Positions 1 to 9,100 of a stretch of 21,054 nucleotides of DNA are shown here, piece by piece. The notes beneath the pieces are model-generated. The model was not told the origin of the DNA, ran no database searches, and saw only the letters and a program-made list of their open reading frames with translations. The DNA is from a virus. The DNA is taken from the IMG/VR virus record IMGVR_UViG_3300042868_000793, positions 1-21,054 of that record. One strand, written 5' to 3'. Position 1 is the first letter of the stretch; every line of letters begins with the position of its first letter. A program made the translations under genes and the position numbers.

Positions 1-130
1 AACCTTCAATGCGTATCATGCCATTGGTAGTATGAATGTAGATAGTCTCATCGTCAGCATCAACTTCAATCTCCTCAAGCTCTGAGCCTAGAAGCTGATT
101 GCATATATCGTATAGGTCTCTCTCAGCCAT
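1..130 (-). CDS. Small phage protein of unknown function (partial, N-terminal 43 aa)
   Basis: The reading frame starts at ATG 130-128 and is still open at the left edge of the window, so only the first 43 residues are seen (MAERDLYDIC...GMIRIEG). The visible part is acidic, with an EEIEVDADDETIYI stretch, and looks like a small soluble beta-containing protein. The start codon overlaps the stop of the upstream phosphoesterase by one base (TAATG), which suggests coupled translation. I do not recognise the family. In T7 this side of the lysis genes carries terminase genes, but nothing visible identifies this one as terminase. Confidence 0.6.
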   Translation of the reverse strand, partial: MAERDLYDICNQLLGSELEEIEVDADDETIYIHTTNGMIRIEG

Positions 131-894
131 TAGTAGTTGTACCTTTCCTTGAGGAACTTAATGCTCACAGCCATCTCATCGAATGACCCATCGTTTACAT
201 CATGCAATACATAGAAGCCACGGTAGTGTTGGTTACCTTGTGGGCCAAGGTAGTCCTCTTCGTGTTCATAGCATGACCCACAAATTATGGCTGTCATCTC
301 TTGACCATTCGCCTTTTTAGCGTACGCGATTTGCCTACCCTGTTGGTGGCCTGCGAAACAGGACATGTGTTTCTTTGTGAGTAGCGCGTTAGCAGTTGTG
401 ATAGGACGACCCATAGGCCCAGAAGTAAAATAATGGGAGTAAGCAATGCCATCAATAACAACGACATCGAGAAAAGGATATACTTCCCAGTCTTGGTACG
501 GTAAATCGTCAATTGACATCAGCCCTTCTAGTTTACTATCCTCATTGATAGCGCGATTGATTCTGTTTTCGTGGTTGCCTAGAGTGAGAACCATCCTAGG
601 TTTGTATTGCTTGTGCTTGTTCTTCTTTGCAGTCTTGTTGTATCTATAGAGTGGTTCCAGCAACGCATCCATAGCGTCTCTAGCTGCAAATAAATCCTTG
701 GTGTACCTCTTACCCTCAAATGATTTTAAACCCTTGTCATAAGTGGACAGCGATTCCATGTCCGCGAAATCGCCTATGCAAATTATTGTGTCGGGCTGTT
801 TTTCTACAATAAAATTTCCAAGGCATTTAAGGAAAGTGAAATCATTTCCATCCTTGGCCTGAACGTCTGGTATCACGAGATGAACTGTCATCAC
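130..894 (-). CDS. Calcineurin-like metallophosphoesterase
   Basis: This 254-aa protein has the ordered metal-binding motifs of calcineurin-type phosphoesterases: D10-x-Q12 (in IPDVQ), G41-D42 (IGDFAD), G106-N107-H108-E109 (GNHENR), H154 (YSHYF) and G182-H183 (GHQQGR). The first motif is D-x-Q rather than the usual D-x-H, which is common in phage members as far as I recall. Family members hydrolyse phosphomono- or diesters with two metal ions; the substrate here is unknown. The longest start is GTG at 894, followed immediately by ATG at 891, so translation may begin at either; residues are numbered from the GTG. It begins just after the Rz stop (TGA at 896-898), with no strong ribosome binding site. 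It lies directly after the lysis genes, an unusual place for an enzyme of nucleotide or DNA metabolism. Confidence 0.85.
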   Translation of the reverse strand: MMTVHLVIPDVQAKDGNDFTFLKCLGNFIVEKQPDTIICIGDFADMESLSTYDKGLKSFEGKRYTKDLFAARDAMDALLEPLYRYNKTAKKNKHKQYKPRMVLTLGNHENRINRAINEDSKLEGLMSIDDLPYQDWEVYPFLDVVVIDGIAYSHYFTSGPMGRPITTANALLTKKHMSCFAGHQQGRQIAYAKKANGQEMTAIICGSCYEHEEDYLGPQGNQHYRGFYVLHDVNDGSFDEMAVSIKFLKERYNY

Positions 895-895
895 A

Positions 896-1357
896 TCATT
901 GAAGATTTATTTGTTCTTCAACCCATTGTTGTAATTGCAATAATTGTAGCACATCTAATGCACAGTCTACGGGATTAATTCCTGCGGTACTAATTGTATT
1001 GCTCGTGGCTTCTGCATCAATTCTGCTGGCGGTGTTGGAAGCTTGGGACACTGCACAGCTTGAGGCACTAGGCTTTGACACCCACTTAATGTTAGGATGA
1101 CTAACATAATAAGACTTGAGCTTAGTAACCGCATCTTTGTATTCCTTTACTGTAGCTTGATTGATTCTATCTTGTTTCTCTGCGAGCTGTTTATTCTTTT
1201 TATTTTGAAGTTCTGCATTAGCTTTAGTCTGTAATACAAAAGCATCAAACTTTTCTTTCTGATTGCTATATCCACTATAGTAGCCATAACCATATACTCC
1301 TATTACAAATAGTCCAATGGCGATAGCAGTATATAATGGATTTAATCTTGCAAGCAT
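896..1357 (-). CDS. Rz: Rz-like inner-membrane spanin
   Basis: This 153-aa protein has the architecture of an i-spanin. A short basic N-terminus is followed by one membrane segment at about residues 9-30 (rich in I, G, Y, V), then a charged, K/Q/E-rich coiled-coil-like stretch at about 34-85, then a periplasmic C-terminal domain. It would sit in the inner membrane and, with the Rz1 lipoprotein, fuse inner and outer membranes at the end of lysis. Its start (ATG 1357) overlaps the end of the endolysin by 16 bases. The assignment rests on topology and position after the endolysin, and is strengthened by a second frame inside it that encodes an Rz1-type lipoprotein. Length is close to T7 gp18.5 (143 aa). 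Confidence 0.85.
   Translation of the reverse strand: MLARLNPLYTAIAIGLFVIGVYGYGYYSGYSNQKEKFDAFVLQTKANAELQNKKNKQLAEKQDRINQATVKEYKDAVTKLKSYYVSHPNIKWVSKPSASSCAVSQASNTASRIDAEATSNTISTAGINPVDCALDVLQLLQLQQWVEEQINLQ
967..1134 (-). CDS. Rz1: Rz1-like outer-membrane spanin lipoprotein, nested inside Rz
   Basis: A 55-codon frame lies entirely inside the Rz gene, in the +1 frame relative to it. It starts at ATG 1134-1132 and ends at TAG 969-967. The product begins with a hydrophobic signal peptide (MRLLSSSLIMLVILTLSGC). The lipobox is L16-S17-G18-C19, so the mature lipoprotein would start at Cys19. The mature part is proline-rich (CPKLPTPPAELMQKP and later), the hallmark of Rz1 o-spanins. Known Rz1 genes are commonly embedded in or overlap Rz in the +1 frame, exactly as here. 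It would be anchored in the outer membrane and bind the C-terminus of Rz across the periplasm. At 55 aa it is easily missed by gene callers. Confidence 0.88.
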   Translation of the reverse strand: MRLLSSSLIMLVILTLSGCQSLVPQAVQCPKLPTPPAELMQKPRAIQLVPQELIP

Positions 1358-1812
1358 AACTCTCTTTCTGCTTTCCGCCTATGAACAATACCAGAACAGT
1401 TGCTGCTTTTAATACGGCAATCTTTTCCAGCCACATAAACCCATCTGTCAAACTCTTTACATGAACCAATGCGGTCTCCAGCATTAGCCTTCTTAGCCAT
1501 TGTAGACTTGCAGAAAGCATTGCCTCCTACATTGTATGCAAAGCTAACGTAAGCATCATACTGGCCTTGTGTCATTGCAGTAGTCACGCATTGTGATACT
1601 TTAGTTCCCGTGGCAGATGTGTTTACTTTTAAATCTTCTAATGCCTTGACTACAGTAACAGGCTTGTTAGGAGTAATAGTAGCATTCCCAAATCCATTTG
1701 TCACAACTCCACCAGTATCTTTATATGGGTCAGAACTAAAGCCTTCGTGCATTGCAATCAGTAACAGTCCACTAGCAGATAAAGCAATTGCGCTTTGTGT
1801 AATCTTATTCAA
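1342..1812 (-). CDS. Endolysin, T4-type lysozyme (GH24) with N-terminal signal-anchor-release segment
   Basis: This 156-aa muramidase cleaves peptidoglycan glycan strands. The T4-lysozyme catalytic triad is present with exact spacing: E23-x8-D32-x5-T38, within HEGFSSDPYKDTGGVVTNGFG. The first 20 or so residues form a weakly hydrophobic segment rich in A, S, L, I and G, directly before the catalytic Glu. That is the signal-anchor-release (SAR) arrangement of the phage 21 and P1 endolysins. Secretion would be Sec-dependent, with activation on release from the membrane. Several cysteines follow in the catalytic domain. The start codon is TTG at 1812-1810. It is set by the holin stop TAA immediately upstream in the same frame; the first in-frame ATG (Met21) would remove the SAR segment. 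A GGAAG lies 8 nt upstream. Confidence 0.9.
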   Translation of the reverse strand: MNKITQSAIALSASGLLLIAMHEGFSSDPYKDTGGVVTNGFGNATITPNKPVTVVKALEDLKVNTSATGTKVSQCVTTAMTQGQYDAYVSFAYNVGGNAFCKSTMAKKANAGDRIGSCKEFDRWVYVAGKDCRIKSSNCSGIVHRRKAERELCLQD

Positions 1813-2019
1813 TTACTTTTCTTCCACACGTTTGTGATGCTCTTTCAATTCTTTGTGTGCCAAGTATTTAAATACTACATTGACAATAAGGCCCACCAAA
1901 CCAATGCACAAGCCGCCAATGGCAGCAAACTCATTAGCAGTCATGCCAAAAAATATAGCGCTGCCAGCTCCAGCGTAAGTTGCCTTGCCTGCAATGCTTG
2001 TGATTGTTTCGTGTTCCAT
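1813..2019 (-). CDS. Holin, class II, phage 21 pinholin-like
   Basis: This 68-aa protein has two membrane segments. The first, at about residues 10-26, is rich in G, A and S (GKATYAGAGSAIFFGM). The second, at about 30-52, is strongly hydrophobic (EFAAIGGLCIGLVGLIVNVV). The C-terminal tail is highly charged (HKELKEHHKRVEEK). Length, topology, the small-residue first segment and the A-A-I-G motif at the start of the second segment resemble S21, whose first segment flips out of the membrane so that small pinholes form. This pairs logically with the SAR endolysin that follows. The start ATG 2019 has an AAGGGA upstream. The stop TAA abuts the endolysin start with no spacer and in the same frame. 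The HP1-type holin family is the alternative label. Confidence 0.83.
   Translation of the reverse strand: MEHETITSIAGKATYAGAGSAIFFGMTANEFAAIGGLCIGLVGLIVNVVFKYLAHKELKEHHKRVEEK
1821..1825 (-). promoter_or_regulatory. Ribosome binding site supporting the TTG endolysin start
   Basis: On the minus strand GGAAG lies 8 nt before TTG 1812-1810, inside the last holin codons. It supports initiation at this rare start codon, although initiation by ribosomes terminating at the adjacent holin stop is also possible. Confidence 0.5.
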
Positions 2020-4498: not shown

Positions 4499-6163
4499 TT
4501 AAATAGTCCCGTATGCTGTTACGTTTCCAACGACTGTTAAATTACCAGAGCCATCTAATTTTGCTTTTGCTGTACCACTTACTTCAAAATACAAAATTCC
4601 TGATGATTCATAAACTTTCCATGTAGAGCCAATTGGAACTTTTGCAGAACTATCTCTTTTTACATATTGACTATTTCCAGTTCCAGCACCATTTGTAGCT
4701 AAATCAGCAAGGTCTGCATCATACGCTTGAACATCAACACCAATTTCAACGCCTAAATTATCTCTAGCAATAGAAGCACTGTTTAAATCAGATAAGTTAT
4801 TATTAGCAATTAATGCTCCAGACAATGAAGCGTAAGCAGCAACCCATGCAGAGCCAGTATAAACTTTCATTACGCCATCTGTAGAATTAAAATATAAAGC
4901 CCCACCAAGAAGGGCATTGCCATCATTATCTACTGACGGGTCAGATGTTTTAGTCCCTAAGTAACGGTCATCAAAGTTATCAAAGGCTGTTAATGTTTGG
5001 TCTCTTGCGGCTTCTGCGGCAGTTTGAGCAGATGCTGCATTAGTTGCACTTGTTGAAGCAGAACTAGCAGATGATGCTGCATTAGTAGCAGATGTGCTTG
5101 CCGCAGATGCTGAGTTAGAAGCGTTGGTTGCAGATGTGCTTGCAGCACTTGCACTGTTACTCGCATTAGTCGCTTGTGTTGTTGCTGTGCTTGCAGAACT
5201 AGATGCAGAACTTGCAGAGCTACTTGCATTAGAAGCGGAAGTAGAAGCGGCAGATGCACTAGAAGCAGCGTTAGTAGCTGATGTAGATGCAGCACTTGCA
5301 GAGCTTGAAGCACTAGAAGCACTAGATGATGCAGCGCTTGCGCTAGATGATGCAGCACTTGCGCTAGAAGCTGCATTAGTTGCAGCAGTCTCAGCATTGG
5401 TCTCGGCTGTTTCAGCATTAGTCTCAGCAGTCTCAGCATTTGTTTCAGCTAACTCAGCAGCAGCTTGTGCAGCTTCGGCAGCAATACGAGCTTCACCAGC
5501 AGCAGCGGCATCTATAACTAAAGCCCATTTAGCACTATCAGCATTTGTACTAATCGGCAATGAGCCACTAGAAGTATGAGCTGTAGTTACTAAATAAATA
5601 TTGTCATTAGTTGTATCTTTAACAATGTCTCGGTTAGCATACGTTGTGCCACTAGCCCAATTGCCACGCCAGTTACCAATAGGGTCTCCAGCTACAGGAT
5701 TACCACTAGCATCAAACGCTAATGTTTTACCAGCACGAACCGTGTTAATTGGCAACACCATGTTAATGTTAGTAGGGTCTGTAACAGGAGCCTTAATAGA
5801 ACGCTCTGCTGTTTCAGCTACTTGTTGCACTAAAATAGTTTGTGAATCTAACTCATCATTGACTGTGTTAGCAAAGAAATCGCCACCAGTCGTAAAGTCT
5901 GTGGTACGCTCTACAGGTCTAGCGCCAACAATAGTAATACGGTCTGAGCCAGTAGCCGCAGATACTAATGTTACCGAACCTGTGCCTAGTGTGGAACTGA
6001 TTGATACTGTGTAATCAGTAGTCAATGTCAGCAACACATCATTCTTGTATACTTTAATGTCTGTGTTAGTTAATACTTCAAAATTAAAAGCGTAAGGGCC
6101 AACACCAGCAGAGCCTGTGTAGACAATACGTCTTGCTACGTTACTTATTGGATAATCTGCCAT
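4499..6163 (-). CDS. Tail fibre protein with T7 gp17-type N-terminal domain
   Basis: The 554-aa protein begins with a clear T7 tail fibre head domain (about residues 1-150). It contains the IVYTG, YAFNFEVL, ITIVGARPVERTTDF and GGDFFANTVNDELD motifs that dock the fibre on the podovirus tail. Residues about 220-388 form a long Ala/Ser/Thr/Asn repeat with heptad spacing (AETNAET units, then SASAAST units), likely a trimeric coiled or parallel-helix shaft. A C-terminal module (about 395-554) includes LGVEIGVDVQAYDADLADLA, a common fibre linker, and ends in a short beta segment without a large receptor-binding domain. Receptor recognition was therefore probably passed to the glycine-rich protein encoded next. 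Length nearly equals T7 gp17 (553 aa). Confidence 0.93.
   Translation of the reverse strand: MADYPISNVARRIVYTGSAGVGPYAFNFEVLTNTDIKVYKNDVLLTLTTDYTVSISSTLGTGSVTLVSAATGSDRITIVGARPVERTTDFTTGGDFFANTVNDELDSQTILVQQVAETAERSIKAPVTDPTNINMVLPINTVRAGKTLAFDASGNPVAGDPIGNWRGNWASGTTYANRDIVKDTTNDNIYLVTTAHTSSGSLPISTNADSAKWALVIDAAAAGEARIAAEAAQAAAELAETNAETAETNAETAETNAETAATNAASSASAASSSASAASSSASSASSSASAASTSATNAASSASAASTSASNASSSASSASSSASTATTQATNASNSASAASTSATNASNSASAASTSATNAASSASSASTSATNAASAQTAAEAARDQTLTAFDNFDDRYLGTKTSDPSVDNDGNALLGGALYFNSTDGVMKVYTGSAWVAAYASLSGALIANNNLSDLNSASIARDNLGVEIGVDVQAYDADLADLATNGAGTGNSQYVKRDSSAKVPIGSTWKVYESSGILYFEVSGTAKAKLDGSGNLTVVGNVTAYGTI
5000..5506 (-). repeat. Ala/Ser/Thr heptad repeat region of the tail fibre gene
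   Basis: These 507 bases encode residues 220-388 of the tail fibre. Three near-perfect AETNAET heptads are followed by many S-A-S-x-A-S-T/A-S heptad variants. The DNA is a degenerate 21-base periodic array built from GCT/GCA/TCT/TCA codons. Copy number probably varies between relatives because recombination between units changes shaft length. Confidence 0.82.
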
Positions 6164-6166
6164 GTC

Positions 6167-9100
6167 TTAGTCCCTTGCCCTTCTCATCATTAATTTTCTA
6201 TTTTCTTGCGCTTTTGCATCAGCTCTTGCTTTTAATGTAGCATGAGATTCTTTTACCATTCTTTCAATTTTAGCGTTCCCATAATATTTATCTTCTGGAT
6301 TTTCCAGTACGGTATCACGCGCTGATTTAAATGCAGATGACATTATGCTTTCTACATGCGCTTTTCTATCATCAGGATGACCATTAATAAAGTTGTTATC
6401 ATACTCCAACTCTAAGATTGCGTCACGCATACCAAATCCACCATCAGCAATTGGCAGACTAGCAAGTTTAATAATAGCCTTGTATTCTTTATCTGACAAT
6501 GGAACACTGTATGGAACAGTTCTAATCTCATCACCAACATCAATATCAAAAGAACCTTGAATATTTCTTTCTGGCATTCTTGTAGATGCGCCACTTAACA
6601 ATCTAATTTGCTCTGCTTTATCATTCTTGCCAAATGTTGTTTGCAATACAGAAGATGTGTCATAAGTTAAATCACGTCCCCATATATCTACTTTATTTAA
6701 ACCTTCTGATAAATATAAACCACGCATTGCTTGATTCCATCCAGCCATTAATCCAGCCAAGCCAGGTGGCATATCAGGGTCAATAGGGAATTCCTCTTTA
6801 TTGTAATCCCAATCTTTTACAAACATCTTTCTTGCGCCACTAGCTGGAGCGTAGAAATCTACCGCAACTTGAGATAGCCATTTTGATGTTTTATTAACTG
6901 CATTAACTGTGCCTTTTTCTGGGCTTCTGTTAATTTCATCTATGCCTCTGATAATATCAGATAAGCCAGTAAGCATCTGATAGTCCATCAAATATTCTGA
7001 CATGCCAACAACGGCTGCACCAAACATTCCAGAGTAATCATTAGGCTCTAAATATCTTGATGATTCATACATTGTTGCACTGATGCCAGCAAGCGCTGCA
7101 AAGGTACTCATACCATTATATGAAGCAAATATTTTACCTTTGTAATTTCCACTTCCCAATGAATATTTAAAAGATTTTCCATACATTGCTTCTGCGCCAG
7201 ATAAACGTTGTGCTTCTGTTTGCCCTTCTGTTTGGCCTTCTGCATCAATAACAAATGCAAATGGCAATGCGCCTTGTGACAGCCAAATTTCTCTCTCAGC
7301 TTTATCTCTAGGGCCAGCACCAGTAATTTTTCCATCAGCAGCTAAAGTAGTCATATATGTCATAATGCCAGCGCCAGTTGTAAGCTTTGCTAATGCCATA
7401 TCACGTTTAAGATAATCGCCAGATTTAATATCCTCGTTCATCTTACGACCAATATCTTGAATCTTCTTTGTTACTTCATGCCATTTACCTGGAGTTTCCA
7501 TAACAGTAGCAGCAGTTCCTTTTGCTGCCATCCATGCTGCACCTAATGGGGTATGCTCCAATGTTTGAATCATGTCATTTGTTGTTGTTGCCATAAATGG
7601 AAACTTCAACCTTATTAAATGACCAATTCCAGAAGTGTCATTATTAGAAGTCATATCAACAAGCCATTTGTGCATTGTCCCTTCTTTTGGTCTTGCTTCC
7701 AATGTCCAATACTTAGCTTCTTGTAATACATCATCTGGAGGATTTACATATACATCTCTAGCTGCCGCTTGATATGCAGCCCATTGCTCATCTTCTGACT
7801 TTCCAAATGAACTAGCAAAATCTCTAGCCTCAATGCCTTTGCGAGTTGCAAGTGCATCTAGCCCCATTTGATAATGTATTCCTTTTGAAAACTCACTTAC
7901 TGTCATTACAGAGCGACTTCCGTAAGAGTGAAGGAAGTTCATTGATTTAAAAAACATTTGAGATAATGGAGTAGCATCTGGGTCAATGTCATAAAAATCA
8001 GGGCGACCAGTCAAACCAGTTCTTTGACCAGAAAGATTATCTAATGCTGAATATTTATTTTTCCATGCAAACATTGCAGCTTGCAACCCATTCTTAATTC
8101 CCTCATCTAATGCAGCAACTTGAGATAATGCTTCCGTTGCATAGCGTCTATTAGATGAACCTAAATTAAGTTTTCCATTAAACAAGTCTGTGTTTCTTGC
8201 CGCCCCCCAAAATGACGCTCCTAATGTATTAGCAGGGCGCAATCCAATACGAGGTAAGTCACCCCCAACTACGCGCGCAAGCGTTCCAAATCCAGAGATT
8301 GTGCCGCTTAGATAAGCAGTAACACCACGGGTCATCCATGAATCTGTTGTTGCAGCATCATTCATTTTCATCAATACTTTATTTCTAGCGGCTTCATCTA
8401 AATCTGAATTTGCCATTACATCTTGACGCTTCTTAAAGAAAGCCAACAAATCATCTTTATTTTTAAATCCTGGCAAGATTGATTCAAATGCCTCGCCCAT
8501 TACTGGTTTATATCCTAACGCACCAAATGCTTGAGCAGTATTAGTTTGATAGCCTTTAACGCTTCTCATCAATAAGCTATTAAAAGAGATAGTCTTTACA
8601 GCGTCATATAATTCAGTATCAGTAGCTTGATTAGCTAATGCTTTACGACCAATGTCGTCAAGAACTGACTTGCTCCATTCAGCAGCCATATTTACTTGCA
8701 ATGAGTTCTCATAAGAAATACCAAGTTTTCCACCTAGCAAGTCATCAATAAACTCTTTATCAAACCCTTGACGTTCAAACTCTTTAGCTGCATCAGTAAA
8801 GCTAACGCGTTTTGTTTCGATGCCTGCTAAGTCTCCAATAGCTTTAAGCGCTGGAGCTAAATCGCCACTGCTTGAAAGATTGAACACTTCTTGTGGAGAT
8901 ATTAATTTTGCTTTTGTTTGAGACTTAATAATACTGCGTTCAGCATCAGATGTCGCATTAGCTAATCTCGATGCTTCTTCTGCTCTAATATTTGCAATGT
9001 ATTCTTCTGATGATTTAATTTGTTCGCCAAGTTGTTGTGGAGTAATCACAGGCTCTTGCGCCATCATTTGCTCAACATCTTGCACAGGTTGCTGTACTGG

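Follow-up and report, generated by a model that had tools for sequence, protein, structure and literature searches.

A predicted Rz1-type o-spanin gene nested within Rz in the lysis cassette of an uncultured phage

The 21,054-nucleotide stretch analysed here (the window), which is an entire 21-kb virus record, carries a short gene hidden within the Rz (i-spanin) gene of its lysis cassette. Our analysis confirms that this hidden gene is real and, as judged from its sequence, that it is an embedded Rz1-type o-spanin; its identity, nesting, lipobox and selection in two frames are demonstrated at the sequence level. Spanin genes arranged in this manner, as in lambda and T7, are customary in phages that infect double-membraned bacteria. 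We consider it very probable (about 0.96) that Rz1 is the o-spanin subunit of an embedded two-component spanin, which would act at lysis according to the lambda model. The decisive evidence is the conservation of Rz1 in relatives, reached through an adjacent phosphoesterase gene and profile searches, and the pattern of codon-position changes in Rz points the same way. The window adds to the known spanins an embedded family from uncultured phages, represented on dozens of contigs and distant in sequence from the spanins of lambda and T7.

An open reading frame nested in Rz

A sequence-only reading of this DNA had described a 55-codon, +1-frame gene at positions 967-1134, lying wholly inside Rz, without giving its strand. 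The open reading frame coordinates bear this out on the minus strand (Table 1), whereas the plus-strand reading of the same positions is full of stops. Read from 1134 to 967, the 55-residue translation is MRLLSSSLIMLVILTLSGCQSLVPQAVQCPKLPTPPAELMQKPRAIQLVPQELIP. The ATG lies 223 nt inside Rz and the stop codon 71 nt short of its end, so that Rz1 is fully nested and spans 0.48-0.84 of the Rz length.

Table 1 Features of the lysis cassette in the window.
Feature	Position	Strand	Length	Evidence
Class II (two-TMD type) holin	1813..2019	minus	68 aa	PF16082, E=9.3e-10 (above cutoff); PHROG 20 holin
Endolysin, T4-lysozyme-type muramidase	1342..1812	minus		PF00959, E=4.3e-31; PHROG 7, E=1.3e-44
Rz (i-spanin)	896..1357	minus	153 aa	PHROG 2536 'Rz-like spanin', E=1.3e-5
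Rz1 (predicted o-spanin)	967..1134	minus	55 codons	PHROG 3198 'Rz-like spanin', E=1.5e-9; begins with ATG
Shine-Dalgarno-like AAAGGAA within CAGTAAAGGAATACAAAG	1135..1147	minus		just upstream of the Rz1 ATG

The LSGC lipobox and the proline-rich mature part, which had likewise been proposed, are both present in the translation. Residues 1-18 form a signal peptide that ends in the lipobox L16-S17-G18-C19, as judged by motif and conservation, and Cys19 is predicted to be the lipidated residue. The residue that follows it (+2) is Gln, and there is no Asp retention signal. The mature part contains eight prolines among 37 residues, as well as a second conserved cysteine, Cys29. When read in the Rz frame, the Shine-Dalgarno-like site of Rz1 corresponds to conserved K-E-Y codons, and a similar purine-rich site precedes Rz1 in nearly all relatives.

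Rz itself has an N-terminal hydrophobic segment (approximately residues 8-27), followed by a long helix, a variable linker over mature Rz1, and a conserved C-terminal segment with Cys132. An AlphaFold model, which we used as a hint only owing to its low confidence (mean pLDDT 52.9), places helices at residues 7-86 and 129-151.

Family comparisons place Rz1 among the spanins. It matches PHROG 3198 'Rz-like spanin' with E=1.5e-9, residues 3-45 aligning with profile positions 4-47 and the last ten residues falling outside the match, and it also matches two further spanin families. PHROG 3198 is matched by all six aligned members of the Rz1 family, and the members of the Rz and Rz1 alignments likewise match spanin families. 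Against the Pfam Rz1 family PF06085, the protein scores 17.4 bits, under the cutoff of 27.9, and is thus not a member of that family but divergent from lambda Rz1.

These matches bear on the reading that Rz1, although a real lipoprotein, is no spanin partner and overlaps Rz by coincidence, as a Cor-like superinfection-exclusion lipoprotein might. A weak match to PHROG 1119 Cor (E=0.013) favours it, although this match probably reflects common signal-peptide composition, whereas the best family matches are spanins, the gene is nested in Rz within a lysis cassette, and the proline-rich domain resembles that of lambda Rz1, in which the proline-rich region is essential (PMC5295617). We regard a Cor-like lipoprotein as very unlikely.

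Conservation of Rz1 in relatives

Used as a single query, the Rz sequence retrieved no relatives from viral contigs, nor did tblastn match it to any of 50,697 phage records. Relatives were reached via the adjacent phosphoesterase, which led to 80 loci, several of them with Rz and Rz1 homologs, and then by profiles built from five of the phosphoesterase-derived loci together with the window. The profile searches yielded 60 loci with the Rz1 profile and 46 with the Rz profile; in each locus, Rz was located and its +1 frame was then read. Of the two profile searches, that with Rz alone does not depend on Rz1, and each of its matches with a complete overlap region carries Rz1.

A hydrophobic segment, the lipobox cysteine and a proline-rich tail were found in the +1 frame of 61 of the 62 distinct Rz sequences (the window included), and the sole exception, L198, runs off the end of its contig. 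Rz1 is nested inside Rz in all relatives with a complete Rz. The frame and the lipobox cysteine are kept wherever they could be assessed, and neither stops nor loss of Cys19 prevails among relatives with an intact Rz.

The six-sequence Rz1 alignment has 18 invariant columns, among them Cys19, Cys29, P30, P35, P36, P43, L39 and M40. Rz1 C29 and Rz C132 are both invariant in the six-member alignments, and both are predicted to be periplasmic cysteines open to intermolecular disulfides.

Two of the relatives deserve separate mention. In MW202796.1 (L097), the Rz homolog at positions 488-898 is annotated as a hypothetical protein, and the Rz1 in its +1 frame, with its cysteine in LAGC and a proline-rich tail, is left unannotated, which makes it another case of embedded spanin genes escaping annotation. 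The contig CAIUOC010000007.1 (L206) comes from a Candidatus Saccharibacteria bin and has an embedded spanin pair that belongs to a distant subgroup; as Saccharibacteria are thought to have no outer membrane, this contig is probably a misbinned phage.

Selection on two overlapping frames

In a +1 overlap, the wobble base of an Rz codon is the second base of an Rz1 codon, and the wobble base of an Rz1 codon is the first base of an Rz codon. In pairwise comparisons of the sequences, the third positions of Rz are the most divergent outside the overlap (0.52-0.59); within it, they are the least divergent (0.28) and the first positions the most (0.49). This codon-position shift over Rz1 has p=5e-5 in a codon-column permutation, the lower limit for 20,000 permutations, in which the tree is held fixed and autocorrelation along the gene is ignored. 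In a scan of 16 non-redundant Rz genes (at most 90% identical), the strongest inversion among 55-codon windows starts at Rz codons 75-77, and Rz1 starts within codon 75. A comparison of substitutions in the two frames across relatives, which had been suggested as a check on the gene, thus finds Rz third-position change suppressed over the Rz1 span and the +1 frame conserved. Codon-position statistics alone can therefore strongly support an overlapping gene.

We compared the observed sequences with two recoding nulls, both of which treat the sequences as independent and ignore phylogeny, so that significance is overstated. When recoding preserves only the Rz protein, the identity of the +1 frame is 0.242 (sd 0.008), as against an observed 0.559; when it preserves only the Rz1 protein, the identity of Rz over the overlap is 0.279 (sd 0.009), as against an observed 0.377. 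Both nulls are exceeded, and therefore both the Rz and the Rz1 frames are constrained. The earlier claim that both frames are constrained at once thus holds for each frame, but the constraint is lopsided. Mature Rz1 residues have a mean pairwise identity of 0.60, and Rz read from the same bases has an identity of 0.33, the lowest in the gene, so that Rz1 is dominant over its mature span and Rz is most variable there. This inequality agrees with the pattern in lambda, in which mutationally sensitive parts of one spanin protein overlie silent parts of the other (PMC5295617).

The low identity of Rz over mature Rz1 is what would be expected if only Rz1 had a function and Rz, where the two overlap, passively followed from the Rz1 frame. 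We give this reading only a slim chance of being correct: Rz identity over the overlap exceeds the Rz1-only null, the Rz frame is open in all sequences, and the Rz C-terminus downstream of the overlap is well conserved (identity 0.63). Conservation and the two recoding nulls led us to reject both this reading and that of a Cor-like lipoprotein.

Synonymous recoding of the window's own Rz (20,000 recodings) left the Rz1 span open in 2.6% of cases. The longest +1 frame observed is 59 codons, as against a mean of 54.5 in recoded Rz, and because recoded Rz gives +1 frames as long, we rejected open-frame length as evidence for Rz1. If the frame were open by chance, yielded no protein and had its lipobox by coincidence, just such an ordinary length would be expected, but this is the least probable of the readings and can be dismissed, as any +1 lipoprotein with a proline-rich tail arose in only 4 of the 20,000 recodings, Rz1 is conserved in all but one of the Rz sequences, and the suppression of Rz third positions is confined to the Rz1 span.

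The lysis cassette and a proposed mechanism

The genes on the minus strand are ordered, 5' to 3', holin, endolysin, Rz (which contains Rz1) and calcineurin-like phosphoesterase. The four-gene lysis system envisaged in the sequence-only reading is correct, with holin, endolysin, Rz and Rz1 assigned through PF16082, PF00959, PHROG 2536 and PHROG 3198, respectively. The holin also has weak matches to PF16080 and to the P21-holin family PF04971, the latter below the Pfam cutoff. Upstream of the cassette lie podovirus tail, internal virion, capsid and portal genes.

The endolysin gene starts with TTG directly after the holin stop codon. On direct reading of the sequence, the N-terminus of its product consists of a hydrophobic Ala/Gly/Ser-rich stretch, followed by E23, eight residues, D32, five residues and T38. 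We take this E-8-D-5-T spacing to be that of the phage-21 SAR endolysin. These features suggest that the enzyme is a SAR endolysin, and the cassette may therefore follow the pinholin/SAR-endolysin route of the phage 21 type (reviewed in PMC9636201).

Elsewhere in the window, a 189-aa protein encoded at 2029-2598, with the holin gene on one side and a weakly GNAT-like gene on the other, matches PHROG 13746 (unknown function; E=4.6e-5) and, judged by eye, is possibly an oxygenase-like enzyme. An Rfam scan of the window found no RNA family.

By analogy with lambda Rz/Rz1 (PMC5295617, PMC6139136), the embedded spanin would work as follows. Translation of Rz1 would start within the Rz message, at a Shine-Dalgarno site and ATG of its own. 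After export, the protein would be cleaved ahead of Cys19, acquire its lipid and, with Gln at +2, be sorted to the outer membrane. Rz would be anchored in the inner membrane through its N-terminal segment, and the periplasmic domains of the two proteins would join to form the Rz-Rz1 complex. After holin triggering and degradation of the peptidoglycan by the endolysin, this complex would disrupt the outer membrane, which in the lambda model means fusion of the inner and outer membranes, and would thereby serve in lysis.

Lysis modules next to the phosphoesterase

The portal and capsid proteins of the window are each 79% identical to those of the cultured Methylophilales (OM43) phage MEP301 (MW452941, L207), and the virion genes, up to 79% identical, are syntenic. 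A holin and an M15A peptidase are annotated in the corresponding region of MEP301, and the paper on that phage lists the peptidase as its sole lysis gene. A motif scan of the whole MEP301 genome, which is not proof of absence, found no credible lipoprotein or spanin. The virion genes are thus MEP301-like, yet no spanin was found in MEP301, and the lysis module therefore appears to have been exchanged.

The best identity of the window's phosphoesterase to MEP301 is only 28%. Different lysis modules occur on other contigs whose phosphoesterases share 78-99% identity with that of the window. Such phosphoesterases adjoin at least three unrelated modules (window 130-2019; L008-L033; MW452941 (L207) 4699-6304): the one described here, a lysozyme with a different holin-like gene, and an M15-peptidase-like gene accompanied by one for a holin-like protein of 131 aa. 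Because similar phosphoesterases stand beside unrelated modules, lysis modules appear to be exchanged at this place. It is conceivable, if on balance unlikely, that the embedded-spanin module in particular has been exchanged among MEP301-like OM43 podoviruses, and that the MEP301-type relatives rely for lysis on a holin and M15A peptidase and lack a recognisable spanin. If so, lysis would depend on a spanin in some phages and not in others, even though their virions are related. The OM43-type phages in any case offer a natural contrast between a spanin-bearing phage and an apparently spanin-less relative.

Comparison with known spanins

In a 2018 survey of 677 genomes, 182 of the 528 two-component spanin systems were embedded, the o-spanin was unannotated in 196 of the 528, and 91 of the genomes were spanin-less (PMC6139136). 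Embedded o-spanins typically extend from 0.4-0.5 to 0.9-1 of the i-spanin length (PMC6139136), and the placement of Rz1 in the window is near this norm.

As in lambda Rz/Rz1, the o-spanin is contained entirely within the i-spanin, is read in its +1 frame, and has a lipobox and a proline-rich mature domain. Lambda Rz1 has 10 prolines (25%), as against 8 of 37 residues here; a further cysteine near the lipid anchor is C29 in both proteins; and the cysteine towards the C-terminus of Rz is C152 in lambda and C132 here (lambda: PMC5295617, PMC6139136). Unlike lambda Rz1, the protein has PTPP and no penta-proline stretch, comprises 55 rather than 60 residues, falls under the Pfam Rz1 cutoff and belongs to a different phage group.

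T7 gp18.5/18.7 offers a second comparison. The T7 spanin is classed as embedded (PMC6139136), and the window likewise has an embedded spanin alongside virion genes of a T7-like podovirus; no T7-type phage was among the tblastn matches with Rz and Rz1. Unlike gp18.5/18.7, the spanin genes described here share a lysis cassette with the adjoining holin and endolysin genes. The arrangement of Rz1 is thus not unusual for spanins: the architecture, an embedded two-component spanin, is known, and this divergent pair is a further instance of it.
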